Source: a virus | IMG/VR virus record: IMGVR_UViG_3300013093_000028 | Coordinates: 1 to 64,000 of that record | Reading direction: 5' to 3' (one strand) | DNA: 64,000 bases | Part shown: in pieces, positions 2,687 through 41,888 of the stretch | Layout: each line of letters starts with the position of its first letter | How positions within the stretch are numbered: position 1 is the stretch's first letter | Position numbers and translations under genes: made by a program | Notes under the pieces: model-generated | The model's input: the letters and a program-made list of their open reading frames with translations, nothing else | Told to the model about the DNA's origin: nothing | Databases searched by the model: none

Positions 2687-2986
2687 GTGAGCAGACCTAA
2701 GCCAACCGTTTTGTTAGAAATAACTAATAAGAAAACTTATAAAACTGAGCAAGTTTTAGAAGCCGAAGCTATTTGGGCTGTTTTTTATCAGGATCGCCCA
2801 ATTAATCTAAAAATTACCAGTTTGGTGGTACAACAATTAGGCCCAAAATATAAAAAAGTTAGTTTTAGTAATGCCGGACATGCCCTTAATCTTGCTAAAA
2901 AACTCAACAAACTATTTGGATGCCAGGACTTCTCTGTTTTTAAATTAACCACAGGTGAGAAGTTAATTGATGATTCAAAAAATTGA
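2687..2986 (+). CDS. Conserved phage protein of unknown function
   Basis: 99 residues from a GTG start with TTTGGAG about eight bases upstream. The opening SRPKPTVLLEITNKKTYKTE and the later GPKYKKVSFSNAGHALNLA form a conserved pattern I associate with T4-like marine phages, always without a known function. The protein is basic and probably a small mixed alpha/beta fold. It lies after a TATAAATA late box and overlaps the next gene by 17 bases, so the two are probably co-translated. Confidence 0.7.
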   Translation: MSRPKPTVLLEITNKKTYKTEQVLEAEAIWAVFYQDRPINLKITSLVVQQLGPKYKKVSFSNAGHALNLAKKLNKLFGCQDFSVFKLTTGEKLIDDSKN

Positions 2987-3362
2987 AATAACCAAATACA
3001 TCGCGGATCAATATAAGCTGGCTAGTGATGAAAAATCACTGAGAAAACTAGTGTCATTATGGTGGGTAAATCCTAGGAAAAAAGCCAAAGGTGGCTTGAG
3101 ATTGACTGATGAAGGATTTGCTCGATTATCAGCACATATCAAATTCCATAAAGTTAAATTTACCGAAGGTCCTATTGAGTATAACAATCAGTTAATACTT
3201 CAATTAGATAATTTTATCAACTGCCCCTGGTATACAACCAAAAAAGAAATATTTGTGACCAACGACAAGATGGCTGTACAGTTGGTGTTGTTTTCTGGTA
3301 ACATTGCTCGATTCAGTCACGCTAAGGCAGAAAGCATTAAAAATCATTTGACAAAAACCTAA
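2970..3362 (+). CDS. Conserved phage protein of unknown function
   Basis: 130 residues. I start it at the ATG at 2970 rather than the TTG directly before it; GGTGAGAAG upstream serves as ribosome site. The C-terminal part, LDNFINCPWYTTKKEIFVTN followed by DKMAVQLVLFSGNIARF, is a recognisable conserved block of marine T4-like phages with no assigned role. It is basic and likely cytosolic. Its end overlaps the -35 region of the promoter for the MoxR gene, marking the end of this transcription unit. Confidence 0.7.
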   Translation: MIQKIEITKYIADQYKLASDEKSLRKLVSLWWVNPRKKAKGGLRLTDEGFARLSAHIKFHKVKFTEGPIEYNNQLILQLDNFINCPWYTTKKEIFVTNDKMAVQLVLFSGNIARFSHAKAESIKNHLTKT

Positions 3363-3376
3363 AATCCCTGTATAAT
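3348..3376 (+). promoter_or_regulatory. Perfect sigma-70 consensus promoter for the MoxR gene
   Basis: TTGACA at 3348-3353 and TATAAT at 3371-3376 with a 17-base spacer: both hexamers and the spacer match the consensus exactly. It points at the MoxR gene at 3438, so that gene is probably transcribed early by unmodified host polymerase. Confidence 0.85.
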
Positions 3377-3382
3377 TATTAC

Positions 3383-3415
3383 ATATTGAAACACTAAGGC
3401 AATTCAATATTTTTT
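3383..3415 (+). promoter_or_regulatory. Leader hairpin with T-run downstream of the MoxR promoter
   Basis: ATATTGAA at 3383-3390 is an exact inverted match to TTCAATAT at 3403-3410, followed by five T. It lies about seven bases past the -10 box, at the expected 5' end of the message. It could be a weak attenuator or a 5' stabilising stem. The stem is AT-rich, so strength is doubtful. Confidence 0.4.
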
Positions 3416-3437
3416 CAACTTTATAGAAAGAAATTTT

Positions 3438-4520
3438 ATGGCAGAGCAAATTAGCACTAATCGCACAGTTACGCCAAACGATGCTAAACGTAGCATCCGT
3501 AAATGTATCAAAATCCAGCGCCCTGTATTCATGTGGGGTCCTCCAGGAATTGGTAAATCCGATATTGTTAAACAAATTGGTGACGAACAAGGTCGTGAAG
3601 TCATCGATGTTCGATTGAGCTTGTGGGAACCTACTGATATTAAAGGTATCCCTTATTACAATAGTAATTCAAATACTATGACATGGGCACCACCTGCTGA
3701 ATTGCCTACAGATCCAGAATCTACTGCTATTTTGTTCTTAGACGAACTTAATTCCGCGGCTCCTGCTACGCAAGCCGCGGCTTTTCAACTAGTTTTGAAT
3801 CGCCGTGTTGGTACATACATTTTGCCAAAAGGTGTTAGCATTGTTGCCGCAGGTAACCGTGAAACTGACAAGGGTGTTACTTATCGTATGCCTGCTCCGT
3901 TGGCTAATCGTTTTGTTCACTTGGAATTGAAGAGCGATTATGATGACTGGTTAGAATGGGCTGTTAACAACAAGATCCATGAACAAGTTGTTGGCTATGT
4001 TGGTTTTGCCAAACAAGATTTGTATGACTTTGATCCTAAGAGCGCAAGCCGTGCGTTTGCTACACCACGTAGTTGGAGTTTTGTTAGCGATTTGCTTAAA
4101 GATGACGACCTGCCAGAAAGCACTTTGACTGATTTGGTTGCTGGTGCTATTGGTGAAGGCCTTGCTGTTAAGTTCATGGCTCATCGCCGTGTTGCTAAAC
4201 AAATGCCAAAGCCAGAAGATATTTTGACAGGCAAAATTACCAAGTGTGATATCAAAGAAATCTCTGCGATGTATTCTTTGACTGTGTCCATGTGCTATGA
4301 GCTCCAATCCGCTGACCAAAAGAAGGTCAAGAATTGGGATAATATGGCAGATAACTTCTTTGCGTTCATGATGGATAATTTCCCAACTGAACTGGTTGTT
4401 ATGGGTGCTAAGGTAGCATTGACCAGCTACAACTTGCCATTTGATGCTAGTAAGTTGAAGCACTTTGACCGTTTCCATGAAAAGTACGGCAAATACATTA
4501 TCCAAGCAATGGAGAATTGA
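3438..4520 (+). CDS. MoxR-type AAA+ ATPase
   Basis: A 360-residue AAA+ ATPase of the MoxR class. Walker A is GPPGIGKS (34-41), Walker B is ILFLDELN (98-105), sensor 1 is AAGN (137-140), and the arginine-finger motif is PLANRF (154-159). The C-terminal half is helical. MoxR ATPases act as chaperones that remodel or insert cofactors into partner proteins, usually with a VWA-domain protein encoded next door, which is the case here (4595-5848). It has its own perfect sigma-70 promoter, a leader hairpin and a terminator, so expression is probably strong and early. What it remodels in infection is unknown. Confidence 0.85.
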   Translation: MAEQISTNRTVTPNDAKRSIRKCIKIQRPVFMWGPPGIGKSDIVKQIGDEQGREVIDVRLSLWEPTDIKGIPYYNSNSNTMTWAPPAELPTDPESTAILFLDELNSAAPATQAAAFQLVLNRRVGTYILPKGVSIVAAGNRETDKGVTYRMPAPLANRFVHLELKSDYDDWLEWAVNNKIHEQVVGYVGFAKQDLYDFDPKSASRAFATPRSWSFVSDLLKDDDLPESTLTDLVAGAIGEGLAVKFMAHRRVAKQMPKPEDILTGKITKCDIKEISAMYSLTVSMCYELQSADQKKVKNWDNMADNFFAFMMDNFPTELVVMGAKVALTSYNLPFDASKLKHFDRFHEKYGKYIIQAMEN

Positions 4521-4521
4521 T

Positions 4522-4543
4522 AAAAAGCCCCTAAGGGCTTTTT
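4522..4543 (+). terminator. Rho-independent terminator after the MoxR gene
   Basis: AAAAAGCCC, loop CTAA, GGGCTTTTT: a nine-base stem with a T-run, starting just after the MoxR stop. It separates the MoxR and VWA units. Confidence 0.85.
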
Positions 4544-4545
4544 AT

Positions 4546-4574
4546 TTGACTTTCAGGATAAATTCATGTATAAT
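4546..4574 (+). promoter_or_regulatory. Sigma-70 promoter for the metallopeptidase-VWA gene
   Basis: TTGACT at 4546-4551 and TATAAT at 4569-4574 with a 17-base spacer, directly after the terminator of the MoxR gene and 20 bases before the next start. Only one base departs from consensus. Confidence 0.8.
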
Positions 4575-4594
4575 AGTATTTTAGAAGGGTAAAA

Positions 4595-5848
4595 ATGTCA
4601 AACACTACAGCAAACAAAAAATTTAAACTTCCTGAAAAGCGGGAATTCACACAATCAGAAAAAAATAAGATTGTTGAAAAACTGATCACTGCCCGTGTGG
4701 GCTTGTTGTTGCGCCATCCATTTTTTGGTAATATGGCCACACGTTTGAAATTGGTTGATGCCAGTGATTGGTGTAGCACATTGGCCACTGATGGCCGTAC
4801 ATTTTATTACAGCAATGATTTTGTAAACATGTTGACTCCAAAACAATGCGAGTTCGGCTTTGCTCACGAAGTATTGCACAACGTGTTTGATCACTTGAGC
4901 CGACGTGAAAATCGAGATAGAAACCTCAGTAACATTGCCGCAGACTATGCTGTTAATCAAATCTTAAAAGATGAGCGCATTGGCGAAGTTCCTAGCATGA
5001 TTCAAATTTTCCAAGATAACAAATATCGAGGAATGAGCTATGAACAAATTTATGACGATTTGGAACAAAAATCTATCAAAATTAATATTGATGATCTAGG
5101 TGAATTACTTGACGATCACTTGGATGGTGACGATGAAGGTGGCGGTGGCGACGGCGAAGAAATTGACGGTAGTGGAAAAGGCCGCCCTAAACTCACCGCA
5201 GAAGAAAAGAAACAGATCCGAGATGAAATCAAAGAAGCTATGGTTGCTGCCGCACAGGCTGCAGGAGCAGAGCGTGTGCCAGCTGGCGTAGCAAGAATGA
5301 TCCAAGTTTTTACAGAACCAAAAATGGATTGGCGCCAAATGTTGCGTATGAATATCCAAAGTATTCTTAAGAGCAATTTTAGTTTTACTCGTCCAAATCG
5401 TAAAAGTCAACATTGCGGTGCTGTACTTCCAGGTATGATGAACGAAGAAACCATTGATGTCAGTGTAGCAATTGACATGTCAGGCAGTATCAGTGATAAA
5501 ATGGCCATGGACTTCTTAAGTGAAGTTAAAGGTATTATGGAAGAATACAAGGACTTTAAATTGGACTTGTTCTGCTTTGATACCGAAGTGTATAACTATG
5601 CTAAATTTACTGGTGATAACGCAGACGATATTATGAGTTATGAATGTAAAGGTGGTGGCGGTACTGACTTTGATGCTTGCTATAACTTTATGAAGGAAGA
5701 AGGCATCGAGCCAAAACGCTTCATTATGTTTACAGACGGCTATCCTTGCGGTAGCTGGGGTGATGAGAACTATTGCGAAAGCCTGTTTATCATTCACGGT
5801 GACTCTAGTATTGAAGCGCCATTTGGGCAAACCGCATATTATAAATAA
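4595..5848 (+). CDS. Metallopeptidase-like protein with C-terminal VWA domain
   Basis: 417 residues in two parts. The N-terminal part has a zinc-peptidase helix HEVLH (91-95) followed by NIAADYAVN (113-121), the pattern of the putative metallopeptidase domain of the DUF2201 type. Residues about 172-200 are an acidic, Gly-rich linker. The C-terminal VWA domain has a complete metal-ion adhesion site: DMSGS (294-298), T357 in GGGGTDF and D381 in FTDGYP. This architecture is the usual partner of MoxR ATPases, and the MoxR gene is directly upstream, although each has its own promoter. The pair may form a chaperone or processing complex. Its target is unknown. Confidence 0.82.
   Translation: MSNTTANKKFKLPEKREFTQSEKNKIVEKLITARVGLLLRHPFFGNMATRLKLVDASDWCSTLATDGRTFYYSNDFVNMLTPKQCEFGFAHEVLHNVFDHLSRRENRDRNLSNIAADYAVNQILKDERIGEVPSMIQIFQDNKYRGMSYEQIYDDLEQKSIKINIDDLGELLDDHLDGDDEGGGGDGEEIDGSGKGRPKLTAEEKKQIRDEIKEAMVAAAQAAGAERVPAGVARMIQVFTEPKMDWRQMLRMNIQSILKSNFSFTRPNRKSQHCGAVLPGMMNEETIDVSVAIDMSGSISDKMAMDFLSEVKGIMEEYKDFKLDLFCFDTEVYNYAKFTGDNADDIMSYECKGGGGTDFDACYNFMKEEGIEPKRFIMFTDGYPCGSWGDENYCESLFIIHGDSSIEAPFGQTAYYK
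5840..5847 (+). promoter_or_regulatory. T4-type late promoter box TATAAATA
   Basis: Exact TATAAATA overlapping the last codons of the VWA gene, 12 bases before the ATG at 5860. It could drive the small genes 5860-7049 and thyA late in infection. Confidence 0.5.
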
Positions 5849-18651: not shown

Positions 18652-21600
18652 TTATAATCCTTCAATCGGGTTATTATTTTGATCTGTTAAGACAAATCCT
18701 GTTTCAGTTGTTATATCAGGATCTCCACCGCTGTAGTAGCTATTTGGCAATACAGCTGGTCGAGCTTGTATAAATTTAGCCTGTTCAGTAGTACTATCCA
18801 ATAATGAAACGCCATTGTTCCATAATGTGGTATCCGAGAATTCTTTCTTAATAATAACCAATTTAATGTTGTCCCCTACTCCTTGTAGTGTATTTAACGT
18901 AATTTGCTGAGTAGCGGTATTGATGGTAAACTCAGGCGGCAAATAGTTTAAACCAGTATAGGTATACCCGTTTACCGCATCAGCCGCTATTGAATTTGTG
19001 TAAATCCAAACTTTATTAGTAGATGTAACAATATATGCTGTGTTTATTACGGTAGTTGAAGGCAACAATGATTCTGTAGAAACAGATCCAGAGATGTTGA
19101 ACACTGGACTATCATATGACAATGTTGTGTCTTGATAATATGTACCAACTTTATTCAACATGTAACCGCCATAGTAAACCTGTACTTGATCCATGGCTGG
19201 TATTCCGGAAGATATAACAATACCGTCACCAGTGGCTGTAGTAGCAGTGGTCAAAATAGTATATGTGGCAGTTGTACTGGTTGTATACAATGTTTGTGTA
19301 TAAATGTGTTCACTAAATGGTATTGTCTGACTAGGACTTTGATCAATAACCGTAGTATAAATGTCTGAGTAAGATTTAGGACTTGTACCCAATGTTGCTC
19401 TACGCAACTGACTTAACACATTACCAGTAATAACAAAGAATTCAATACGTTCCCCAGCAATCATTACAACACCTGGAATTTTCTTAGATGGCACCGCAGG
19501 TGTTAATACACTAGCGTCATTAACGTGAATTTCTGTATCTGTTAGATGTAACGGCTGTGTTAGATATGTGGAATTTTGAGCAGATATACGTTTGAATGAA
19601 GTTCTATTGAATATATCATTGAAAATCCTATAACCCAATACTGTGGATGCTAATGTGTGATTAGCAATGTATGTTATCACAATCGTATTCCCCACACCAA
19701 TCAAATACTTGTCGCTAATTTGTATTGTAACACCATCACTCAAAATTTGGTAATCCACATTGTCGACTAATGGCACACCATTTATAACTAACCACAAATA
19801 ATTTGTGTTCAATGGCGGGGCAGTAATTTTAAATTGATTAGAGATCGTTCCTTTGAATCGTTCTGTTCTTAATAACATTCCGTCTTGGTCGGTATATGTT
19901 ATAATTCTAATAGTAGCATTAGCAGTGGGACTTGATAATATTAAGTTAGATCCTTCAATATTAAAATCATATCCGTCGCCAGGCTGTTGATATAAATCAA
20001 CCACAGCAACAACATCGCCATTTCTTACACCACTATAGCTAATGGTAATCGTATTGGCCATATTATCAACAGTAAAATCAAATCCACCACTTAGTTTAAT
20101 TCCATTGACATAGACCTCAACACTGTTGTTTGCTATGGCATATACACCAGTTGGTCTTGGTCTACTATTGTTAACACTAAATGTTAAGTTATCATTAGTA
20201 ACTGTGTAATAACTTACATACGGTCCTACTAATTGTTTGGAATTTTGTTGGACTATGACATTTGCCACTGCTGGTCCAACATTTCCCGGAGCAGGATTTA
20301 ACGCATAAGTGTTTACTGTGTCATCAGTAATTGTGATAAATTGATCCGTTATTTCATTGAAATAACTATGCGCAGATGTAAAGAACCAGGCTTGTATAGT
20401 GTTTGTTCCTGGAGGTAAATTATAAACAGTCACTGCCGCACGAGTATCAGCCCCGTCAACAACTGGCCCTAATACATAACCATAACCTGTAGAAGTAGTT
20501 TGTAGGGACACTGATGATCCATTAACTGTGACAAATGCGCTGTTGATAGATCCAAATTCAAAATTACAATAAACTTGAGCATTGGATGCATCTGTCACTG
20601 TATTAGAATTGTACCCAACAACGCCTGCGTCATTGCCGCTGCCACCACCAACACTGATAATTGTGTATCCAATTACTGCGCTGTAATTGGCATATACACT
20701 CAATTGACTGGTTGCCCAATCAATACTAAATTGTCCAGGCACTAAATTAGTGGATGTTGTATATGTGTATATCTCTTGGAATCCATCAGTAATTGTTATA
20801 CTTGCGGTTGTAGTTGGTAATATTGGCAATGTAATTGTCCCAGTAGTACCGCCTACAATGTTAAAATTTCCAGAAACAACTATCGGAGCACCTGACGGTG
20901 TTTTGGTATAAACATTAATCCCAAGACTGTCACTTGACCCACCTGCTACCAATTCTTCCGGAGCATAGCTATCATCAGGATTTAAAAAGCCGCTACCGAC
21001 TCTTGCAGTGCTGGTAGATCCGCCATCAATAATAATGTCACTTGGATTGACACCTAATGCGCCAGTTAGTATAGCCGCGTTTGTCCCAGTCCAAGTTCCT
21101 CCATCAATTGATGTATCAAGTAGGGCAGAATTAGACCCCACATTCCAAAATTCAATAACTGTTCCAGGTGGGATTGCCGAAGTTAATGTACTACTAAATG
21201 TCACCACTGTGCCTGTGACTGCTGTCACTGTTACATCAGTTGAATAAAACACATTAGTAATTGTACTAATAATATTTGCGTATTGCCCAACTAGTGTAGC
21301 CGATGCTGAGTACAATGAAATATTATTTGTTCCTGCAGTTGCTGTGGAAGTTGATGTAGTCTTGCTATAGTATTCAATGTCGTTACCCCATGGTGTTGTA
21401 CCAAAAGGCACATTGCTTTCATCCCATCCTGTTGTGGCATTAAACGCCAATGTTTGAAGTTGTGTTCTGGGATAGTCAACACCCAACATTAGTTGCCCTA
21501 GATCTAATCCAGGCATACCCGAAGTAGCTGTATAATAATTTAAAATTCTATCTGCAGCAGATTGGATACTGACATCTTTAACATAGGTAATTTTTAATAA

Positions 21601-24600
21601 CTGCCCAATACCAGGAACAGCATTTAAAAATTTAATCTGACAATATTTTTTTGAATATCCATTGTATTCTTCTGTGAAGTATTCAATAGTGTAGTCTGAC
21701 CAAAGTACACGCAAGCCACCCAATGTCATAGTGATCAAAGACTTATTGGGTACAGCGGGCCAGCTTAACACAAAAGAAGTTGCTGACCCATTACATATAA
21801 ATTGATCAGTGGTAGTTGTATTCCCAATTTGACCACTGGCTGAAATTCTATCAAATTTCATTGTAATGTCAAAATTACGTATTGGATCTAGAGCAGATGT
21901 TGAATCTTCAAAATCTGAGGTATAAGTCGCAGTTGGTTCTACAACAGAATATTGTTCTGTAAAATTCCTAATTTGTGTATGATAAGGTTTTACTTCTTCA
22001 ATATAGTTTTCAAAGTTTGTGCTACTGGTTACCAAATATACTGAAGGCTGTGCCAGCACGCCGGCTTCATTAGTAATACTGATAAATGATGTTTTAAATG
22101 CCCAGTCTAATAATTTTTGTTCTGTGAACGCATACTTAACTGCCTTAAAGAAGAATAAATTCCAATTTACTCGTAATTCGTTGATAAAAATATTATCACG
22201 TAATGCCGTTAAAATATAATTCAACTCTAAATCAGGAGTTTGATCATATAGTGTTTGATCATACGCACTGATTTCATCATAGGCTAGGCTATTATTTTGT
22301 GTATTCCAGATATTGTCAGAAATTTGTATTGTGCCGTTCTGTGAATAAACAATGTTAAAGTGATTGCTGAATGTTCCTACATTACTGTCAGTATACTCTA
22401 AAATAATATAGTTGCCTAATCCGTTATTTTTAACCTTAACATAATCATCGTTGTTTAAAACTAAAGAATCAATTTGATAGACATAGTTTACAGTTGTGGT
22501 GTAGTCCTTGTGTTTATTAAAGTCGCTACTTGACCAGTCAGTATAATTCCAATATAATGTAGTATTATACGATTGAGTACGAGCTCTTACCCACGTTTTA
22601 TTTTCAATATCACGTACAAATATTGCCCACTTGCCATTGTAAGTGCTGTCTGATACCACTACTACTGAATAGGGTCGAACTGTTAATATAGGTGTTGCTA
22701 CATATCCTTGACCTGCGTTAGATATCACGGCGCTTATAACTCTACCATTTGAGTCAATTTCTGTCTTGATTACTGCTCCAGTACCTATACCATCAACAGT
22801 CACTGTTGGCGCAGTTAGATATCCACGACCAGGGTTAGTTATAGATACTGATCTTACTTTCCCATCATATACTGTACAGGTTAGTTCAGCGGTTACAAAT
22901 AACGATGTGTCAATTGTATCAAGTTCATTAGTATCCTCGAGTGTATAATCGTATAGGTTAGAAGATACAGGCGGTATTTCTTCCTGAGCATTTAAATTAA
23001 TAAAATTATAACTACCTGTAATAATATTGTTAATTAAGATGTCATTAGCAAATTCAATTAAATTTCGTAAGGCGTTTAATCTGTTGATAAACATTGTTTG
23101 TCTTGGTCTAATACCTATGCCATATCGTGTTCTAGAAGTTAATGCTGGATCGGGAACTAAATTGCCTACACTATCATGACCTAATAAGCTATCAAATAAT
23201 TTCTTTTCAAGTAGAGCATTAGGTAATGACGTCTCATTACCTTCCTGTAGCAACAACCATTCTGTGTGTTTAGGAATAATGTTATCGGTAGTATCAATAG
23301 AAATATTTAAATCAATATTACTCTTTATTAGTTCTCCACCAACATTAGCAACTATCACGGCATGTGGAGAAATTATGGACGCATATTGTAAGCCATACCC
23401 TGTTGGGTCTTTTATAACTTGTGCCACATCATATGCGCTGACTCGTCTATTTGGAACATTAGGTACTATAACTGAATTTTTAACCCAATAATAATATCTG
23501 TAGTTATTAAACGTTTGTGTTACTGTGTCATAGGACTGTACTAGAGAATAAACGGTATTATCTGGATTTTTTGGTTGTCCACTAACACCCAAAGTTAAAC
23601 CAGCAGGAGTATCGGCCAACGCACTCCACTCAGTAGGTGATAGATTAGACCCGACCCACTCATAAACATCTATACTTGAACCTGGAAATACTTGTCCCCA
23701 AGTATTTTTTCTAAATGTATCTTCGCCCTGTTCGTACCATTGGTATTTTACAGTACTCAAATCCCACCACAATTCGCCAACATGATTGTCAGCCCAATTT
23801 GTCAATGTATTAATGGCATTGGCAGTAGTGCCAATAGAATAAGTAGCAGGATCTGAAATCATTTTGTACGTCAATTCTTGATCTGCCATACCTGCGATAC
23901 GACCTTTTAGCGGATCAATTACATCAAGGTAATTTACAATTTCTTCAGTTGATGTATTAATCAATCTTACTCGTTGAATAGTGTCAGTAGCAACAAGATC
24001 ATTTTGACTTCTTAGCAATTTCCATCCATTGGTACTAGTATCAATCTTACTAAACAGATACACAGAACTTGCTATGGTTGAATTATCAATTGCTGGAGCA
24101 CCAACTAGCGCAGTATCAGAATCAATAGTAACAGCCTTGCCATAATTAGTACCGTCTGCTGTTGATACTGGTGAAAGTTCTTCAGAGAATACAAATCTAC
24201 TTGCCAATCTAGTATAGATATATGCTGTGCCAGAATTATTAATTACATCATAAAATTTTGTAGAATCTGCGTCAAATGTAGTATTCCCGCCAAATTTTGA
24301 TGTAGCATCAAAAGTTGTTGCCCCATGTACACCCGATCCGACACTGGAAATTATCAACGAATCGTTTGTTGAATTGATATCTATATCAGTACCAAAATGT
24401 ACTCCAATAACTCCAGATGGATTTGTTAATACCTGCGACTCATAGAATGTGCCATTAATATTTTCAAAAACATACACACTACCATAACTTCGATCAAAGT
24501 TTTCACAATAAGGAGCGCTAACAAACAAATAAGTTCCATCTGGTGATAATAGAACTTTTTGTCCAAATCCAGAACCAGCAGGCAAAGATACAGTAACCTC

Positions 24601-27600
24601 CTGATTAGCAACAGCGTAGCCATTAGAATTTGAAAAAATACTAACAAATGCTGGTGTGTTGGTATTACCCAAAACACTGACAGCTATCAACGATGCGTCA
24701 TCTGTACCACTAATACTGTAGCCAAGTTGACTACCAACGCTAAGGGAAGCTGTAGTACGGTGGAAAAGAGTAGCAGATACTGTGCCGCCACTTGTTGACA
24801 AATTATAAAAATTTAATGCGCCAGTGCCTGTGTTAACTGTGCCCGGGGCAGTCACAACCATTACTTTATTAGTTGTTGTAGAAATTCTTTGTACATATAT
24901 TCCTGAACCAAACAAATCGTAGTTTGAAGGGGAAGGATTATTAATGACCAGTTGCTGAACTTCTTCAAGACTTACAGAATTTATACTGCTGATCTTTACT
25001 AGCCCAGAATCAACAACACCATTGGTAGTCTGTGCGGTTGGAGCTCCAGCAAATACCAATCCATAGATTGATGATCCAAAAGCATTATCATCATAGACTA
25101 CAGTTTGTCCAAACCCCGTGTCATTGTTTAATGAGTTGGCTGCGCCGCTTAATTCATTTAGGTAATAGTCTAATTTTCTAGTTAGTCCGCCATTATTATT
25201 TGTTGTATATACTGTGACACGCCCGTAATTTCCGTTTTGTACAAATCCAGGAGCGCCAACAACCACAACATTAGATCCCTTACGTTTACTGATGCTATAG
25301 CCCAATTGTTGATTATAAACATTACCAAGACTGTTTGCTGAAGACACTGAGTAGTTGTTTATTTTTTCATAAACACCCCACTGCCCGTTGTTGGCATTGT
25401 CAATCCATACTTTGGTGCCTTCAGGTAATTTTAATAATTTTTTATCATTTGGTAAATTATCAAATGTGTTAAATCTAAAACTATCAAATTTAAATAAAAG
25501 CCCCACAGTGGTTGTAGAGGCAGAATTAGCAACATACGTAGCAGTCGATGCTATCAAGAATGAGGTTGGATTAGGCACCGCAGTTACCAAATATACACCA
25601 TTCACAGTAGGATCAAATTCAGTAATGGAAACTAGTTCTCCTGAATTTAATCCATGATATCCATTGGTAGTAACTAATACATCAACCCCTGGAACATTGA
25701 TTCCAACTGAAGCAATTTGACCATCTGATTCAGTATAACGTAATACGTCCCAATCATTATCCTGTTTGAATCCCAACCAAACAATATCGCCTTCTTTGAA
25801 TACACTAGTGCTACTAGAAACAACAGCGCTCAAAGTATCTAAATTTAAAGTTGTGTAGGATACATCATCAGCTCGCACATACCCAGCAGTGGTTAATTCA
25901 AAAGCATTATTAGTTAACGTTCCAGAATTTACCGCAAAGGTCATGGAACTTACATAATTTGGTGGAGTAATTTGCCAGTCAGTGGCAGTACTGTAGACTT
26001 TTAAGTCATATGCTGACACGGGTGGATTAGTTGCTGTGAACACAATCACTTGTGGATTGTCGATAAATGTTCCTTCAACCAAAGGCACTTCTAATTCATT
26101 ATATGAAGAATATGATCCGTATTGTCCAACTCTAAATGCCCATTCTTCGTTATAGGTAAAATTACCTTGAAGATTTTGTATACTGGCCTTGGCCAATTTA
26201 GCAATGGCATTGTACGTACCTTTCTCTTTAATGTATCCTTGATAAAATTTGTATTGAGCAATCGGATCAATGATAATATTTGTCAGATAAGGTCTAGGTG
26301 TATAACCAGTTAGATACTGAGCGGATTTTTGTTGACCAGAATCAAAATTATCTATATCTAAACTGTAGAAGTCTTGGAACTGACTAATTTTATAATCAAG
26401 ATTAGGTAATAATCCTGCTGTAGGTTTTTTAGGTAGTACTTGCCATTTAGTAAAATCAAACTTTTGAGCACCGTCAATATTGTTAATTGCCGAATAATAA
26501 TTTCCAGAATAGTAAACAGCATCGCCCGCATTATAATCTTTGTATTGTGTCCAGTCGCCTACCTTGGCAGTATCGTAAACAAAGCCTGGACTGAAATAAT
26601 CACCGTTCCAATTAGCAGTTCTAAAACCACTTAATTTCATACGCTGTTGATAAAATCCAGTTTCAATACTATATGCTGTATTATCAAAAATTGTGGTATT
26701 GTTAAACACCATACCGTGTTCTTTTTGTACATTTCTAAATATAGCAAAATATATGCCATCATTAGAGTTTAGGGTAGTTATTGTACAAACACCATCCTGT
26801 CGAGTAATGTTTATTCTATTTTTTGGTATCAATGTACCATTCGCAGACATCACATTGTAGGAATAAAAAGGATCAAAAATATCATCAACTACAGAATTAG
26901 CAGAAGTAAATTGTACTTTTTCAGCAAATGGGCTTAATGCTATTACACTATTATCTGCCCAATTTTGCGTCGACCAATATAAAAATTCCTTTGCTGTAAA
27001 ATTCCAATCAATATTAGTTCCAAAATCTGAACTGTATAAATCAAAAACAAATCCTTGATCAGTTAGCCATGCGCCATAGCCAATAATAAAGTCGTAAACT
27101 TCTTGTATTGTATTGAACGTAGTACCATAAGAAATCTGTTTAATAGTTTTATTAAAGGTTGTAGCAATTTGAACAGTTGCGCCACCAGTCACTGGCAATG
27201 CTGAAATTTCTTGATATAATGATGGATTAAATGTACTTTCTGATTGATGTGATACAGTTACAATGTAAAAATTACTACCGTATTGTACATATTGACCTTT
27301 CTGATAAAACTTTCCAGTTGGAGAAGTATTAGCTGTAGTTGTTTGGTCAGCAGTAAGTCCTGTTTCACCGTAACTAACAGTATTAGACCAAGTAACAAAT
27401 GGCGCTGTTACACCACCAACATTTATTGTAGGTGTTGAAGAGTTCCGAATTGGTCCATATACGTTGAAATAAGGATTAGTTTGATCATACCCCTTGACCA
27501 CAAAAGATCCATTAACTTTTTGTAAAATAATTCCAGAAATACTAGAATAACTAATCGGGTCACTAACATTCAAAATTAAAGAGTAATCTTGAGGAGCCAA

Positions 27601-30600
27601 TAATACGCCAGGACTAGTAGCTGTTGGGTCAATAGCGTTTATAGTTACCTGTAATGTATTTTGACTTACAAATCCACCAACTTTGTGGAATAAATTATAG
27701 TCCAAATAATCAATATCAGATTGTACTTCTGAATTATAATTTTGTGTGCGTTGGCGCCCCGTCTCACTAACATAAACACTATAACCGGCAGTCAGCGCAT
27801 TATTAACCCCTTGTAGCGTAATATTTTTAAGGCTCAAGAATGAATAATCTAAGTTTACTCCATAAACCCATTGGCCAGCAATATTTTTTTGAATACGACT
27901 TGTGTCATACATTAAAGATGAATAAGCGGCAGGATATGTCAATGCCAGTAATTTTTGAACCGCAAACGGAAAATAACTGCTTCTACGCCACGTGGCTTCT
28001 GCTGGGCCTTGATCTCCAAATACCCAATTTTTTTGTTCACCTTCTGGAGTATAATTCACCAGCAAATTAACTGTAGGGTCTAATAAATTGCCATACTCAT
28101 CTACAGGCAATATATTTGACAACCCAGGACGGGCATATAAACTATCAATGGTATCGGTATAGGCATTACGGCCGTATTCTAAATCTTGCCATAACAAAGT
28201 GTTTCCAGATGTATAAGGTGCCGGTCCGTACTGAGCAGTCCACCAAGATGGCTGTTCACTAAACCCCAACATCTCCCATGGGCATGTGTGAGGACGATCA
28301 GTGCCGTAAAAATATTTGTAAATTCCTCTCCAATTGCCATTTACCGGAATTCCTAATAGTTCATTATAAGATCCTAAATAGTTCCAAGTAAATTTTTCAT
28401 CTTGATTAAAACTCACATTCTCAGTATAATCAACACCATATGCTCCCGCCCATTTAATAAAATCTCGAGATAATATAGTATTAACTTCATTTAAAGAATA
28501 ATCGTTGGTATTGAAGGCTCCAGGAATTACTGTGTTAATATCAAATAGATCTGATCTATATTGAGTCTTGATATTATTATAAATTCGTTTTTCAAATTCT
28601 AAAACAATGGCATCTCGATAATCATTATATGCCACCATGATGCTGCCATCATGACCTTGAATAACTTTTACTGGCTCATCGGCATAGGTGTCATCTAAAT
28701 AAATTGAAGGAGTAAATTTAGGATATAATCCTAATTTCGTAGGAGTCGGTGGCACATAGCTACCTGATGTATCTGGATATTGATTTACTGTTAAAACATC
28801 TCCAGGAGTTAATTTTGTTAATAATGTAATACTTGAGTCAGCAACATCAAATTCATAATCTACATTCAGTAATAACTGTTCGCTGTTCAAGTAAACTAAC
28901 ATGGCTGTTAGACTTAGTGCCGAAGGATCAAAATCAAAACTTAATGGATAAGTTACATTTCTCGAATCTGTCACTGTCCAGGTTCTAGAATTTACATCAG
29001 TGCCGTAAGGAACCATGTCAGATAGATAATACGGACTTAGAATATTCATAGAACTATTCATAGCAGCCAAGGCCTGATCAACAGCCAATATTGGATTTGA
29101 TTGATTACCTAATATTAAAATCTGTTTTAAAAATCCTAATTTATATTGATTGTACTGATCAGCGGCTTTAGTAAGAGCATTGATAACACTGTGTTCCTTT
29201 TTCCCAATAAACATTTGAGCAAAAGGTATTGGGTTGACATTAGAAATTAAACGACGGCCATATTGTTCAATGCCAGCGATGTCTCGCAAATTACCAAGTC
29301 CTGGAAATTTTCCTAAGAAGTCGGGAGATCCTTCTGCCATTGTTTGTACATGATCCTGTAGATCAGTTAATGTTATGGAAGTAAGTAAACCATTTAATGG
29401 ATTATTTGTAAGCCCAAGAGGAGGTTCATAATATCCCGTATCGTTAGACAGGGGAGTCTTTGAATATAGTTTAAACAATACATTTGTACCAGTAGCTAAT
29501 GGCTCGGCAAATGAAACAACAGTTTTTTCTAAAGATTTTAATAAAGTAAATTCGTTACTATGTAATTTTGAAAAATTAACATATACTTCAATATCATCAT
29601 TGTTTGAAAAATTATCTAAGGCAGTTATAGCAATAGTTGACGTAGTCGATGTTGTTGCTTGAAATTGTAGTATAGGTATCTTATATCCGTTAGATAAGGA
29701 CCACACATTTGTGTAAACATTGCCAGTACTTTCTGAAAATTTACAATAGGTAACAGCAGTCGACACTGCTAGGCTAGTTTGTCCTTGAGAAACATTGATA
29801 ACATCAGAATTAAAATAGTTGGTAAACAAATAACTACCAACACTAATACTATTTTGATATTTTATTGAAAATCCTAGCACTGAATCATATACGTCGCCAG
29901 GAGTGTAGCCAAAAATTTGATTACCTTTGAAATCTGATATGTAATGATTGGTATCACTATAACTATTTCCAACATCGTCAAATAAATCAAATAGTGGTGG
30001 CTGATTTAATTTAGTATGTTGTTGAGCATAGACCCAGTCTGTACCATTATACCACCAACTTGATCCAGCATATTTTGAACCGTTTACAATACTAACACAG
30101 TTGCCAGTTACCGGAGTGTGATCTGGTGCTGGGATAAGTGCCAATTGTCGTGTATTACCAACTCCTGGAATATTATAAGTAACTATCCATATTTTATCTT
30201 TTACCAAAGGATCTGGGTCGTTGGTAAAAATAACACGATCACCTTGTCCCAATAATCTTGGATTGGTATTGTCATAATCAACAAAATATCCCCACGAACC
30301 TTCAACTGATTTAAAAACATTTGTTGTTTCGGTGTCAATCCAATCAACGTTGGCAATAGCTGAATCACCAAAATTATAAAGTTGTAGATTGGCTTTAAAT
30401 TCAATAATAGGGCGAGTTGCTCTTTGTTGCGCAGGGTATACTGCCTGTACTCCATTTGCTAGAGCGCTGGCCGCAATCACATCTTGATGTACCCAACGAT
30501 TATAACGTGTCCAAGCATTTAAATCTTTACTGGCTCGATTAATTGTTATATAGTCAGGACTAATAGGTAAAGATTTATTTCCATCAAAAGGAAAATCATC

Positions 30601-31299
30601 AAATCCATCACCATCAAAACTTTCATTGTAGATTGTGGAAATTTTTCCGGCAGTTACTAATGAATTGTAGTCAATTAATACTATGGAAGAGCCTACGCCC
30701 TCAACAAAGAATTTCTTATTCAGATAATCAGAAGTTATATTTTTACCAACAAACTCAATCAGCATACCATTAGATAATGCGATAGTGGCAGTGCCTATCA
30801 ATGTAGTAAATCCAGATTTGCCTACAATATCTGCATCCACATCTAGTACATCATTTGTAATAGTTATGATCTCTGGACCAGTTACTAGCCAATAATATTC
30901 TTGATAGTTAACTAGTTTGTCCCAATCGATATGCGGATTATATGAATAAAATTCACTTCTAAATAAACGGTCAAGATTGTTAGTAATGCCACCATTGACA
31001 TTTACTTGGTTAATCAAATCATCGTAGGCTATAACTTCTTTAATGTTTGAATTGATATCATTAATAACTAGAGCTGGCTCTAAATTATATGCCGCACGTA
31101 TCGGCGAAAAGTTTGAAATATAATTATCAGTGGTTGAAACATAGTTAGGAGTAACTTTACTACCAATATACCCATCAATGCGTTCTAATTGAGCAGGACG
31201 AATTAATTGATCAATAGTACTAGATAAAAATTTTGCGTTTTTATCTGTTTGAAAGTATGAGGGAAGTAAATTAACTGATTGAAAAGTCGATGTACTCAT
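18652..31299 (-). CDS. Giant 4215-residue tail/baseplate structural protein
   Basis: A single uninterrupted 12.6 kb frame starting three bases after gene 6. The N-terminus (NLLPSYFQTDKNAKFLSSTI, then QLERIDGYIGSKVTPNY, then YYWLVTG) resembles giant tail proteins of marine T4-like phages. Residues about 1995-2415 contain repeated blade motifs such as GYSISKRKGSNVVVVGAPG, FGQTVVYDDNAFG and YGKAVTIDSDTALVGAPA, with the look of FG-GAP (integrin-type) beta-propeller repeats. Two GxGYxxxPxxTV motifs occur at about 2826 and 2866. The C-terminal third is many beta domains. It takes the place where T4 has gp7 to gp10, so a wedge or peripheral baseplate role is likely; this is inference from position. 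Confidence 0.8.
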   Translation of the reverse strand: MSTSTFQSVNLLPSYFQTDKNAKFLSSTIDQLIRPAQLERIDGYIGSKVTPNYVSTTDNYISNFSPIRAAYNLEPALVINDINSNIKEVIAYDDLINQVNVNGGITNNLDRLFRSEFYSYNPHIDWDKLVNYQEYYWLVTGPEIITITNDVLDVDADIVGKSGFTTLIGTATIALSNGMLIEFVGKNITSDYLNKKFFVEGVGSSIVLIDYNSLVTAGKISTIYNESFDGDGFDDFPFDGNKSLPISPDYITINRASKDLNAWTRYNRWVHQDVIAASALANGVQAVYPAQQRATRPIIEFKANLQLYNFGDSAIANVDWIDTETTNVFKSVEGSWGYFVDYDNTNPRLLGQGDRVIFTNDPDPLVKDKIWIVTYNIPGVGNTRQLALIPAPDHTPVTGNCVSIVNGSKYAGSSWWYNGTDWVYAQQHTKLNQPPLFDLFDDVGNSYSDTNHYISDFKGNQIFGYTPGDVYDSVLGFSIKYQNSISVGSYLFTNYFNSDVINVSQGQTSLAVSTAVTYCKFSESTGNVYTNVWSLSNGYKIPILQFQATTSTTSTIAITALDNFSNNDDIEVYVNFSKLHSNEFTLLKSLEKTVVSFAEPLATGTNVLFKLYSKTPLSNDTGYYEPPLGLTNNPLNGLLTSITLTDLQDHVQTMAEGSPDFLGKFPGLGNLRDIAGIEQYGRRLISNVNPIPFAQMFIGKKEHSVINALTKAADQYNQYKLGFLKQILILGNQSNPILAVDQALAAMNSSMNILSPYYLSDMVPYGTDVNSRTWTVTDSRNVTYPLSFDFDPSALSLTAMLVYLNSEQLLLNVDYEFDVADSSITLLTKLTPGDVLTVNQYPDTSGSYVPPTPTKLGLYPKFTPSIYLDDTYADEPVKVIQGHDGSIMVAYNDYRDAIVLEFEKRIYNNIKTQYRSDLFDINTVIPGAFNTNDYSLNEVNTILSRDFIKWAGAYGVDYTENVSFNQDEKFTWNYLGSYNELLGIPVNGNWRGIYKYFYGTDRPHTCPWEMLGFSEQPSWWTAQYGPAPYTSGNTLLWQDLEYGRNAYTDTIDSLYARPGLSNILPVDEYGNLLDPTVNLLVNYTPEGEQKNWVFGDQGPAEATWRRSSYFPFAVQKLLALTYPAAYSSLMYDTSRIQKNIAGQWVYGVNLDYSFLSLKNITLQGVNNALTAGYSVYVSETGRQRTQNYNSEVQSDIDYLDYNLFHKVGGFVSQNTLQVTINAIDPTATSPGVLLAPQDYSLILNVSDPISYSSISGIILQKVNGSFVVKGYDQTNPYFNVYGPIRNSSTPTINVGGVTAPFVTWSNTVSYGETGLTADQTTTANTSPTGKFYQKGQYVQYGSNFYIVTVSHQSESTFNPSLYQEISALPVTGGATVQIATTFNKTIKQISYGTTFNTIQEVYDFIIGYGAWLTDQGFVFDLYSSDFGTNIDWNFTAKEFLYWSTQNWADNSVIALSPFAEKVQFTSANSVVDDIFDPFYSYNVMSANGTLIPKNRINITRQDGVCTITTLNSNDGIYFAIFRNVQKEHGMVFNNTTIFDNTAYSIETGFYQQRMKLSGFRTANWNGDYFSPGFVYDTAKVGDWTQYKDYNAGDAVYYSGNYYSAINNIDGAQKFDFTKWQVLPKKPTAGLLPNLDYKISQFQDFYSLDIDNFDSGQQKSAQYLTGYTPRPYLTNIIIDPIAQYKFYQGYIKEKGTYNAIAKLAKASIQNLQGNFTYNEEWAFRVGQYGSYSSYNELEVPLVEGTFIDNPQVIVFTATNPPVSAYDLKVYSTATDWQITPPNYVSSMTFAVNSGTLTNNAFELTTAGYVRADDVSYTTLNLDTLSAVVSSSTSVFKEGDIVWLGFKQDNDWDVLRYTESDGQIASVGINVPGVDVLVTTNGYHGLNSGELVSITEFDPTVNGVYLVTAVPNPTSFLIASTATYVANSASTTTVGLLFKFDSFRFNTFDNLPNDKKLLKLPEGTKVWIDNANNGQWGVYEKINNYSVSSANSLGNVYNQQLGYSISKRKGSNVVVVGAPGFVQNGNYGRVTVYTTNNNGGLTRKLDYYLNELSGAANSLNNDTGFGQTVVYDDNAFGSSIYGLVFAGAPTAQTTNGVVDSGLVKISSINSVSLEEVQQLVINNPSPSNYDLFGSGIYVQRISTTTNKVMVVTAPGTVNTGTGALNFYNLSTSGGTVSATLFHRTTASLSVGSQLGYSISGTDDASLIAVSVLGNTNTPAFVSIFSNSNGYAVANQEVTVSLPAGSGFGQKVLLSPDGTYLFVSAPYCENFDRSYGSVYVFENINGTFYESQVLTNPSGVIGVHFGTDIDINSTNDSLIISSVGSGVHGATTFDATSKFGGNTTFDADSTKFYDVINNSGTAYIYTRLASRFVFSEELSPVSTADGTNYGKAVTIDSDTALVGAPAIDNSTIASSVYLFSKIDTSTNGWKLLRSQNDLVATDTIQRVRLINTSTEEIVNYLDVIDPLKGRIAGMADQELTYKMISDPATYSIGTTANAINTLTNWADNHVGELWWDLSTVKYQWYEQGEDTFRKNTWGQVFPGSSIDVYEWVGSNLSPTEWSALADTPAGLTLGVSGQPKNPDNTVYSLVQSYDTVTQTFNNYRYYYWVKNSVIVPNVPNRRVSAYDVAQVIKDPTGYGLQYASIISPHAVIVANVGGELIKSNIDLNISIDTTDNIIPKHTEWLLLQEGNETSLPNALLEKKLFDSLLGHDSVGNLVPDPALTSRTRYGIGIRPRQTMFINRLNALRNLIEFANDILINNIITGSYNFINLNAQEEIPPVSSNLYDYTLEDTNELDTIDTSLFVTAELTCTVYDGKVRSVSITNPGRGYLTAPTVTVDGIGTGAVIKTEIDSNGRVISAVISNAGQGYVATPILTVRPYSVVVVSDSTYNGKWAIFVRDIENKTWVRARTQSYNTTLYWNYTDWSSSDFNKHKDYTTTVNYVYQIDSLVLNNDDYVKVKNNGLGNYIILEYTDSNVGTFSNHFNIVYSQNGTIQISDNIWNTQNNSLAYDEISAYDQTLYDQTPDLELNYILTALRDNIFINELRVNWNLFFFKAVKYAFTEQKLLDWAFKTSFISITNEAGVLAQPSVYLVTSSTNFENYIEEVKPYHTQIRNFTEQYSVVEPTATYTSDFEDSTSALDPIRNFDITMKFDRISASGQIGNTTTTDQFICNGSATSFVLSWPAVPNKSLITMTLGGLRVLWSDYTIEYFTEEYNGYSKKYCQIKFLNAVPGIGQLLKITYVKDVSIQSAADRILNYYTATSGMPGLDLGQLMLGVDYPRTQLQTLAFNATTGWDESNVPFGTTPWGNDIEYYSKTTSTSTATAGTNNISLYSASATLVGQYANIISTITNVFYSTDVTVTAVTGTVVTFSSTLTSAIPPGTVIEFWNVGSNSALLDTSIDGGTWTGTNAAILTGALGVNPSDIIIDGGSTSTARVGSGFLNPDDSYAPEELVAGGSSDSLGINVYTKTPSGAPIVVSGNFNIVGGTTGTITLPILPTTTASITITDGFQEIYTYTTSTNLVPGQFSIDWATSQLSVYANYSAVIGYTIISVGGGSGNDAGVVGYNSNTVTDASNAQVYCNFEFGSINSAFVTVNGSSVSLQTTSTGYGYVLGPVVDGADTRAAVTVYNLPPGTNTIQAWFFTSAHSYFNEITDQFITITDDTVNTYALNPAPGNVGPAVANVIVQQNSKQLVGPYVSYYTVTNDNLTFSVNNSRPRPTGVYAIANNSVEVYVNGIKLSGGFDFTVDNMANTITISYSGVRNGDVVAVVDLYQQPGDGYDFNIEGSNLILSSPTANATIRIITYTDQDGMLLRTERFKGTISNQFKITAPPLNTNYLWLVINGVPLVDNVDYQILSDGVTIQISDKYLIGVGNTIVITYIANHTLASTVLGYRIFNDIFNRTSFKRISAQNSTYLTQPLHLTDTEIHVNDASVLTPAVPSKKIPGVVMIAGERIEFFVITGNVLSQLRRATLGTSPKSYSDIYTTVIDQSPSQTIPFSEHIYTQTLYTTSTTATYTILTTATTATGDGIVISSGIPAMDQVQVYYGGYMLNKVGTYYQDTTLSYDSPVFNISGSVSTESLLPSTTVINTAYIVTSTNKVWIYTNSIAADAVNGYTYTGLNYLPPEFTINTATQQITLNTLQGVGDNIKLVIIKKEFSDTTLWNNGVSLLDSTTEQAKFIQARPAVLPNSYYSGGDPDITTETGFVLTDQNNNPIEGL

Positions 31300-40915: not shown

Positions 40916-40943
40916 TTGACAACCAAAAAATATGTGCTATACT
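40916..40943 (+). promoter_or_regulatory. Sigma-70 promoter for gene 55
   Basis: TTGACA at 40916-40921 and TATACT at 40938-40943, 16-base spacer, 31 bases before the gp55 start. Lies in the divergent region between the - strand tail block and the + strand replication genes. Confidence 0.75.
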
Positions 40944-40947
40944 TTGT

Positions 40948-40955
40948 GATAAATA
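40948..40955 (+). promoter_or_regulatory. Late promoter box GATAAATA upstream of gene 55
   Basis: GATAAATA directly after the sigma-70 promoter and 19 bases before the ATG. It would allow gp55 to act on its own gene late in infection. Confidence 0.4.
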
Positions 40956-40973
40956 AAGGATAATAACAATAAC

Positions 40974-41888
40974 ATGACTACAACTTTTTCTCCTAGAAAG
41001 GTAAAATACCTTAATAATAAAGATTTATTAGCAGAAATCCATCGTAGCAAATGCTCGTTCTCAAGTTTTACTCAACCAGAATATCAACAGTATGATATTA
41101 TTTTGCCTAGTCTTAGCAAAGTAAACATACGGACTATTGCTGAAGCTAAAAGAGCACAGGCCAAGAGAATTGGCATTGCCGCATTTGCCGCCGCTAGAGC
41201 TTCAGGCGATAAAAAAGTAAAACTAGCAGACTGTACGCCCGACTATACCACTATCGCAAAAACAGATGTCATTATTAGAATCATGACATTTGATCATATC
41301 CCGTTGGCACCTGGACGTAAAAAGACTGTTAAAAACACTTCAGATGGACATGATAAGGTAAATTTTCCACCATTTCAGCACTGGAAATTCAATGATCAAG
41401 GCGAATTAATATGCGTAGGCAAAAGTCATTGGAAAGGACCTGTTGATAGTGGACACTTTAGCAAAGATCACGGACGTATCACAGAAAATTTAGGCAAGAT
41501 GTTTATCAAACTAAGTGAACGCTATGCCCAACGCAGTAATTGGCGCGGTTACACTTATGTTGATGAGATGAAGGGCCAAGCTATCCTACAGTTAAGTCAC
41601 ATTGGACTACAGTTTGACGAATCCAAATCAGAGAATCCATTTGCCTATTATACTGCGGCAGTCACTAATTCCTTTACTCGCATCTTGAATATTGAGAAGA
41701 AGAGCCAAAATATTCGCGATGACTTGCTGGAAGAAGCAGGGTTAACACCTAGTATGACCAGACAAAACAGTCAAGAGTACGCAAGTGAAATTGCTCGACA
41801 GGCAGAACTATACAAAAATATGCGTATGCCCAAGAGCGAGGATGATATTCCAGAAGAAGATACAGAAAACGAAGATATTGCTCCTTGA
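40974..41888 (+). CDS. gp55: Late transcription sigma factor gp55
   Basis: 304 residues, longer than T4 gp55 (185). The core about 165-250 is diagnostic: FIKLSERYAQRSNWRGYTYV, DEMKGQAILQLSHIGLQFDE, NPFAYYTAAVTNSFTRILNI and EKKSQNIRDDLLEEAGLTPS, which corresponds to the sigma region 2 of phage late sigma factors. gp55 binds host core polymerase and directs it to TATAAATA-type late promoters, several of which occur in this window. The extra N-terminal 60 residues are basic; the end is acidic (EDDIPEEDTENEDIAP). It is expressed from a host-type promoter, with a possible late box adding self-activation. Confidence 0.9.
   Translation: MTTTFSPRKVKYLNNKDLLAEIHRSKCSFSSFTQPEYQQYDIILPSLSKVNIRTIAEAKRAQAKRIGIAAFAAARASGDKKVKLADCTPDYTTIAKTDVIIRIMTFDHIPLAPGRKKTVKNTSDGHDKVNFPPFQHWKFNDQGELICVGKSHWKGPVDSGHFSKDHGRITENLGKMFIKLSERYAQRSNWRGYTYVDEMKGQAILQLSHIGLQFDESKSENPFAYYTAAVTNSFTRILNIEKKSQNIRDDLLEEAGLTPSMTRQNSQEYASEIARQAELYKNMRMPKSEDDIPEEDTENEDIAP

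Follow-up and report, generated by a model that had tools for sequence, protein, structure and literature searches.

A MoxR-type ATPase gene and its zincin-like/VWA partner gene with conserved private promoters in a T4-like relative of jumbo phages

Two adjacent genes of a viral genome, here called A and B, probably encode a single ATP-driven MoxR−VWA remodelling machine that would be made in the early or middle phase of infection with its two components separately tuned. The DNA analysed (the window) is the initial 64 kb of an IMG/VR virus record of 96,343 bases, whose portal protein has its closest counterparts in Xanthomonas phage XaC1, PA5oct-type Pseudomonas phages and Sinorhizobium phage Phosso. 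Genes for a tail sheath and for a late sigma factor of the T4 type are also present so that, with the affinity of the portal protein, the record is identified as a T4-like relative of jumbo phages. The window adds one member to a known pair, the added detail being the conserved private promoters of the two genes. The locus contains the following features, listed with the evidence for each:

2967..3362, plus strand: small gene directly upstream of the pair, 131 amino acids (syntenic cluster in 7 of 21 compared phage loci, all jumbo-type relatives)
3348..3376, plus strand: sigma-70 promoter of gene A, TTGACA-17-TATAAT, 12/12 (window scan; conservation in relatives)
3438..4520, plus strand: gene A, MoxR-type AAA+ ATPase, 360 amino acids, phrog_1297, N4 gp24 family (Pfam, PHROG, AlphaFold2, Foldseek)
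4519..4546, plus strand: intrinsic terminator between A and B (fold −14.9 kcal/mol, z −4.1; hairpin in relatives)
4546..4574, plus strand: sigma-70 promoter of gene B, TTGACT-17-TATAAT, 11/12 (window scan; conservation in relatives)
4595..5848, plus strand: gene B, zincin-like domain (DUF2201_N, HEVLH-x4-H) plus VWA domain (DUF2201, complete MIDAS), 417 amino acids, phrog_1314, N4 gp25 family (Pfam, PHROG, invariant residues)

Domains and active sites of the two proteins

The gene A product scores above the cut-off for Pfam AAA_3/AAA_5 and matches phrog_1297 at 3.2e-104. When it was aligned with its counterparts from 15 very different phages (25−53% identity to the window protein), G37 and K40 of Walker A, D102 and E103 of Walker B, N140 of sensor 1, the arginine finger R158 and a sensor-2-like R211 were all found to be invariant. 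Open reading frame, Pfam assignment and invariance thus agree with the original prediction of a MoxR AAA+ ATPase with intact Walker A, Walker B, sensor 1 and arginine finger. The AlphaFold2 model is good (pLDDT 88) and, among the 50 Foldseek matches listed, the top ones are the solved structures of NorQ, the NorQ−NorD complex and CbbQ2, with TM values of approximately 0.5 to the query, which support the family level and are not proof of the subfamily. By comparison of sequence profiles, the best match is Midasin.

For the gene B product, Pfam detects DUF2201_N (2.9e-40) and the DUF2201 VWA-like domain (2.5e-15), and the match to phrog_1314 reaches 7.3e-106. In the corresponding alignment of 15 very different phages (20−51% identity to the window protein), the invariant positions include H91, H95, H100, D117 and N121 in the zincin-like domain, together with the full set of five MIDAS residues (D294-x-S-x-S, T357 and D381). 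The Glu residue of HEVLH is conserved in 160 of 161 distinct B proteins, so that the fusion of a zinc-peptidase-like domain to a VWA domain whose MIDAS is complete, as initially read, is confirmed by both Pfam and the conserved residues. The one exception is the B protein of Agrobacterium phage Atu_ph07 (L156:7295-8584), where Gln replaces Glu and the zinc motif is HQILH instead of HExxH; the peptidase is, therefore, probably inactive there and its chemistry would be dispensable in at least one relative.

The AlphaFold2 model of the gene B product is of moderate quality (pLDDT 77, pTM 0.54). A fold search returned VWA domains and many phage metallopeptidase/VWA proteins, with ORF892 of the archaeal virus ATV among the matches. 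The same search with the zincin-like domain, as given by this moderate model, matched no solved zincin, and sequence profiles gave a weak match of this part to MJ1213. The label ‘HNH endonuclease’ carried by phrog_1314 and by many GenBank/RefSeq records looks like a propagated error: Pfam gives no HNH match at E values up to 1, this identity was rejected, and the common label of the gene B family is unsupported by the present survey.

Linkage, history and previously described relatives

Both genes are present in 201 of the 209 relative loci, and in the remaining eight the contig ends near the gene that was found, in two of them (L020 and L190) beyond a segment at which an insertion is found in relatives; the outcome considered fatal to a partnership, namely either gene occurring alone as often as both, was looked for and not found. 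In L020, a radical-SAM-like open reading frame (recognized by eye; L020:2938-4004) follows the MoxR gene at the usual start of B, and a promoter-like sequence lies at the contig end. Among annotated phages, 835 records contain a relative of A and 758 a relative of B, with near-equal counts by host genus. In bacterial genomes, a MoxR gene was detected at 68 of 80 gene B-type loci, upstream and on the same strand in 64, and the four best bacterial-genome matches of B are probably phage DNA binned with bacteria.

The trees of A and B correlate (r = 0.86, a value that includes shared descent; permutations did not exceed 0.21). In both, the pair of the cyanophage S-TIM5 falls inside the same mainly bacterial clade and that of the window in a jumbo-phage clade. 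On the basis of the agreement between the trees and of the position of S-TIM5 in both, the two genes seem to be transferred together. It is common to N4-like podoviruses, rV5-like phages, jumbo phages, cyanophages and many bacteria and, from the trees, was likely acquired by phages several times, with a number that is uncertain given the long branches. A comparison of 21 phage loci revealed no third partner common to all groups. The 131-residue upstream gene was rejected as such a partner, being limited to jumbo-type relatives; its counterpart in Atu_ph07 (L156:5477-5869) carries no annotation.

The proposal that the locus represents an undescribed phage system does not hold. For group 2.2 jumbo phages, including Atu_ph07, Iyer et al. 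2021 (PMC7824862) name a MoxR plus metallopeptidase−VWA pair with the same domain fusion, and gp24/gp25 of N4 belong to the core gene set of N4-like phages. The proteins cited for Atu_ph07 (ASV44729.1/ASV44728.2) are those of locus L156, and were recovered in the homology searches at 4e-64 and 5e-85. They share with the window the two-protein composition, the domain fusion, the gene order and the strand, with approximately 38% and 45% identity, and differ in the catalytic Glu discussed above; private promoters and a terminator are not mentioned in the passages of PMC7824862 consulted. N4 gp24/gp25 form a homologous pair of AAA ATPase and vWFA protein in matching order, but they belong to a podovirus, B is more diverged and the genes are of the middle class. 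A MoxR pair was also noted in Bacillus phage 0305phi8-36 (2007). A literature search for the essentiality of N4 gp24/gp25 found none, and one for interaction, ATPase or protease assays on any member of a phage pair had the same outcome.

Better characterized systems share part of this architecture. NorQ−NorD and CbbQ−CbbO, which provide the best fold match for A, combine a MoxR AAA+ ring and a VWA partner with a DxSxS-T-D MIDAS, but their target is a known metalloenzyme or rubisco. RavA−ViaA of E. coli is likewise a MoxR ATPase with a VWA partner, but RavA is absent among the 50 fold matches listed for gene A. NorD is not known to have the DUF2201 zincin-like domain, nor ViaA a zincin-like domain. 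In the viral MoxR−VWA pair p618/p892 of ATV the two proteins interact physically: p618, which is part of the virion, binds the VWA protein p892 (PMC4124505). This pair, however, belongs to an archaeal virus and has no peptidase domain. A known anti-phage defence system was considered and rejected, as PADLOC gives weak P-loop matches for A (best 0.003) and none for B.

Promoters, terminator and expression timing

The gene A promoter is the sole 12/12 match within the 64-kb window, where 0.17 would be expected from shuffled sequences. The gene B promoter is one of six 11/12 matches, against 3.6 expected, and on the evidence of the window alone it is approximately at chance level; conservation makes the case. 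Among 111 distinct relative A−B loci, a promoter matching at least 10/12 positions is found upstream of A in 106 and in the A−B gap in 57, and both hexamers rank with the most conserved segments when the upstream regions are aligned. A count of perfect promoters over 89 loci (1.55 Mb) gave 83, of which 45 precede A and 22 are in the A−B gap (67 together), such promoters hardly occurring elsewhere. Such conservation across relatives led us to reject a chance origin, and the view that each gene has its own near-perfect sigma-70 promoter stands.

The same is true of the strong terminator described between the genes, which was missed by a generic terminator scan and found by folding: a comparable hairpin is present in the A−B gap of 82 of the 111 distinct relatives, often with different stem letters. 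A late T4-type promoter was also considered, and rejected: upstream of A there is a 7/8 match to TATAAATA, but it shares bases with the −10 region and does not stand out. The comparison of sequences thus gives good support to selection, in this lineage, for transcription of the two genes that is separate, strong and of host type. The layout with private promoters is not universal, since the S-TIM5 genes have a 4-base overlap. In six loci (L014, L058, L063, L064, L067 and L133), the A−B gap extends to approximately 480−570 bases and a perfect promoter is retained immediately ahead of B, and in L014 small open reading frames are found inside the long gap.

N4 middle genes are transcribed by N4's own RNA polymerase II. 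That strong sigma-70 promoters are conserved for the pair in one phage lineage bears on its timing and, with N4 gp24/25 being middle transcripts (PMC4193335), argues for early or middle expression, as read from the promoter sequences and by analogy with N4. Early, strong and separately tuned expression, as initially proposed, is consistent with these promoters, but not the accompanying argument that separate promoters are unusual for partners that should be equimolar. The stoichiometry of NorQ−NorD is six NorQ to one NorD, and RavA and ViaA of E. coli are present at approximately 350 and 90 copies per cell, respectively (PMC3893208), so that the equimolar premise fails for MoxR−VWA pairs. Elsewhere in the window, the gene of the T4-type late sigma factor (40916-41888, gene at 40974) is preceded by an 11/12 sigma-70 promoter, which fits an early class.

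Proposed mechanism and possible targets

The reading of the two genes as a MoxR/VWA partner pair, probably a chaperone, is supported by the domains, the linkage and the fold matches. In NorQ−NorD, a finger of the VWA protein enters the pore of the ring and ATP turnover twists the adaptor, by which the target opens (PMC13036017). By analogy, the gene A product would form a hexameric AAA+ ring, and the gene B product would be the adaptor, with the VWA domain docking on the ring and, through the MIDAS metal, on the target. The N-terminal zincin-like domain would contact the target, and might clip or hold it, while ATP turnover would twist or pull the adaptor, leading to remodelling of a protein complex. 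The phage would make the pair in the early or middle phase from strong host-type promoters, with the two genes separately tuned plausibly because the ring needs several A subunits per B.

What the machine acts upon may be considered separately. The proposal of Iyer et al. that the pair acts as a virion assembly chaperone, which would remodel and proteolytically mature structural proteins by analogy with ATV p618/p892, concerns the target rather than the machine, and is regarded as a tentative but serious possibility. Besides its publication (PMC7824862), it draws on the presence of ATV p618 in the virion, with its binding to p892 and the appearance of ORF892 among the fold matches of B, on an ESI-MS/MS note in the record of the PA5oct ATPase, on the virion genes that adjoin the pair in RaK2 and S-TIM5 and on the structural module near the pair in roseophage RPP1. 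Against it, the pair is carried by phages of the myo and podo types, whose virions differ, and also by bacteria, the promoters are of host type, and N4 gp24/25 are middle genes. Moreover, among the 14 proteins identified by virion proteomics of S-CREM1, four are structural, nine have no known function and one lacks a match, a make-up from which the annotated MoxR seems to be absent.

The host-type promoters and the middle class of N4 gp24/25 are the reasons why virion assembly is rated close to an early replication- or host-directed role, in which the machine would remodel a host complex such as RNA polymerase or a defence complex, the phage replisome or enzymes of nucleotide metabolism. This role, likewise a tentative possibility, is favoured by the conserved strong sigma-70 promoters and by neighbours that in several groups include 5'-3' exonuclease, thymidylate synthase, dCTP deaminase, RNase H, helicase and DNA polymerase. 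Such genes sit in early regions anyway, however, which makes the neighbourhood weak evidence; the PADLOC comparison gave no meaningful match to known defence proteins, and the N4-like phages that have the pair among their core genes infect very different hosts. That the machine is a metal-cofactor insertase for a phage or host metalloenzyme, in the way NorQD puts iron into nitric oxide reductase, is improbable by a wide measure in spite of NorQ being the closest solved fold to A, of the aid commonly given by MoxR−VWA pairs to metal insertion (PMC13036017) and of the radical-SAM-like frame after A in one relative, as no metalloenzyme was consistently linked to the pair in the comparison of 21 phage loci.

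A bolder form of the proposed remodelling machine may be formulated, although we regard it as unlikely: taken from bacteria several times by large phages, it would act early, during takeover, on a defined host or phage complex that it would both remodel and clip, as a proteolytic MoxR−VWA system without characterized precedent, with the separate promoters setting the ring-to-adaptor ratio. The question of the target is directly testable in N4, which infects E. coli K-12.

Two further genes of the record were observed, both on the minus strand: among the tail genes, a single open reading frame that encodes 4215 amino acids (window 18652-31299), and a gene for a tryptophan halogenase family protein (phrog_2928; L211:4229-5416, corresponding to record 88229-89416).
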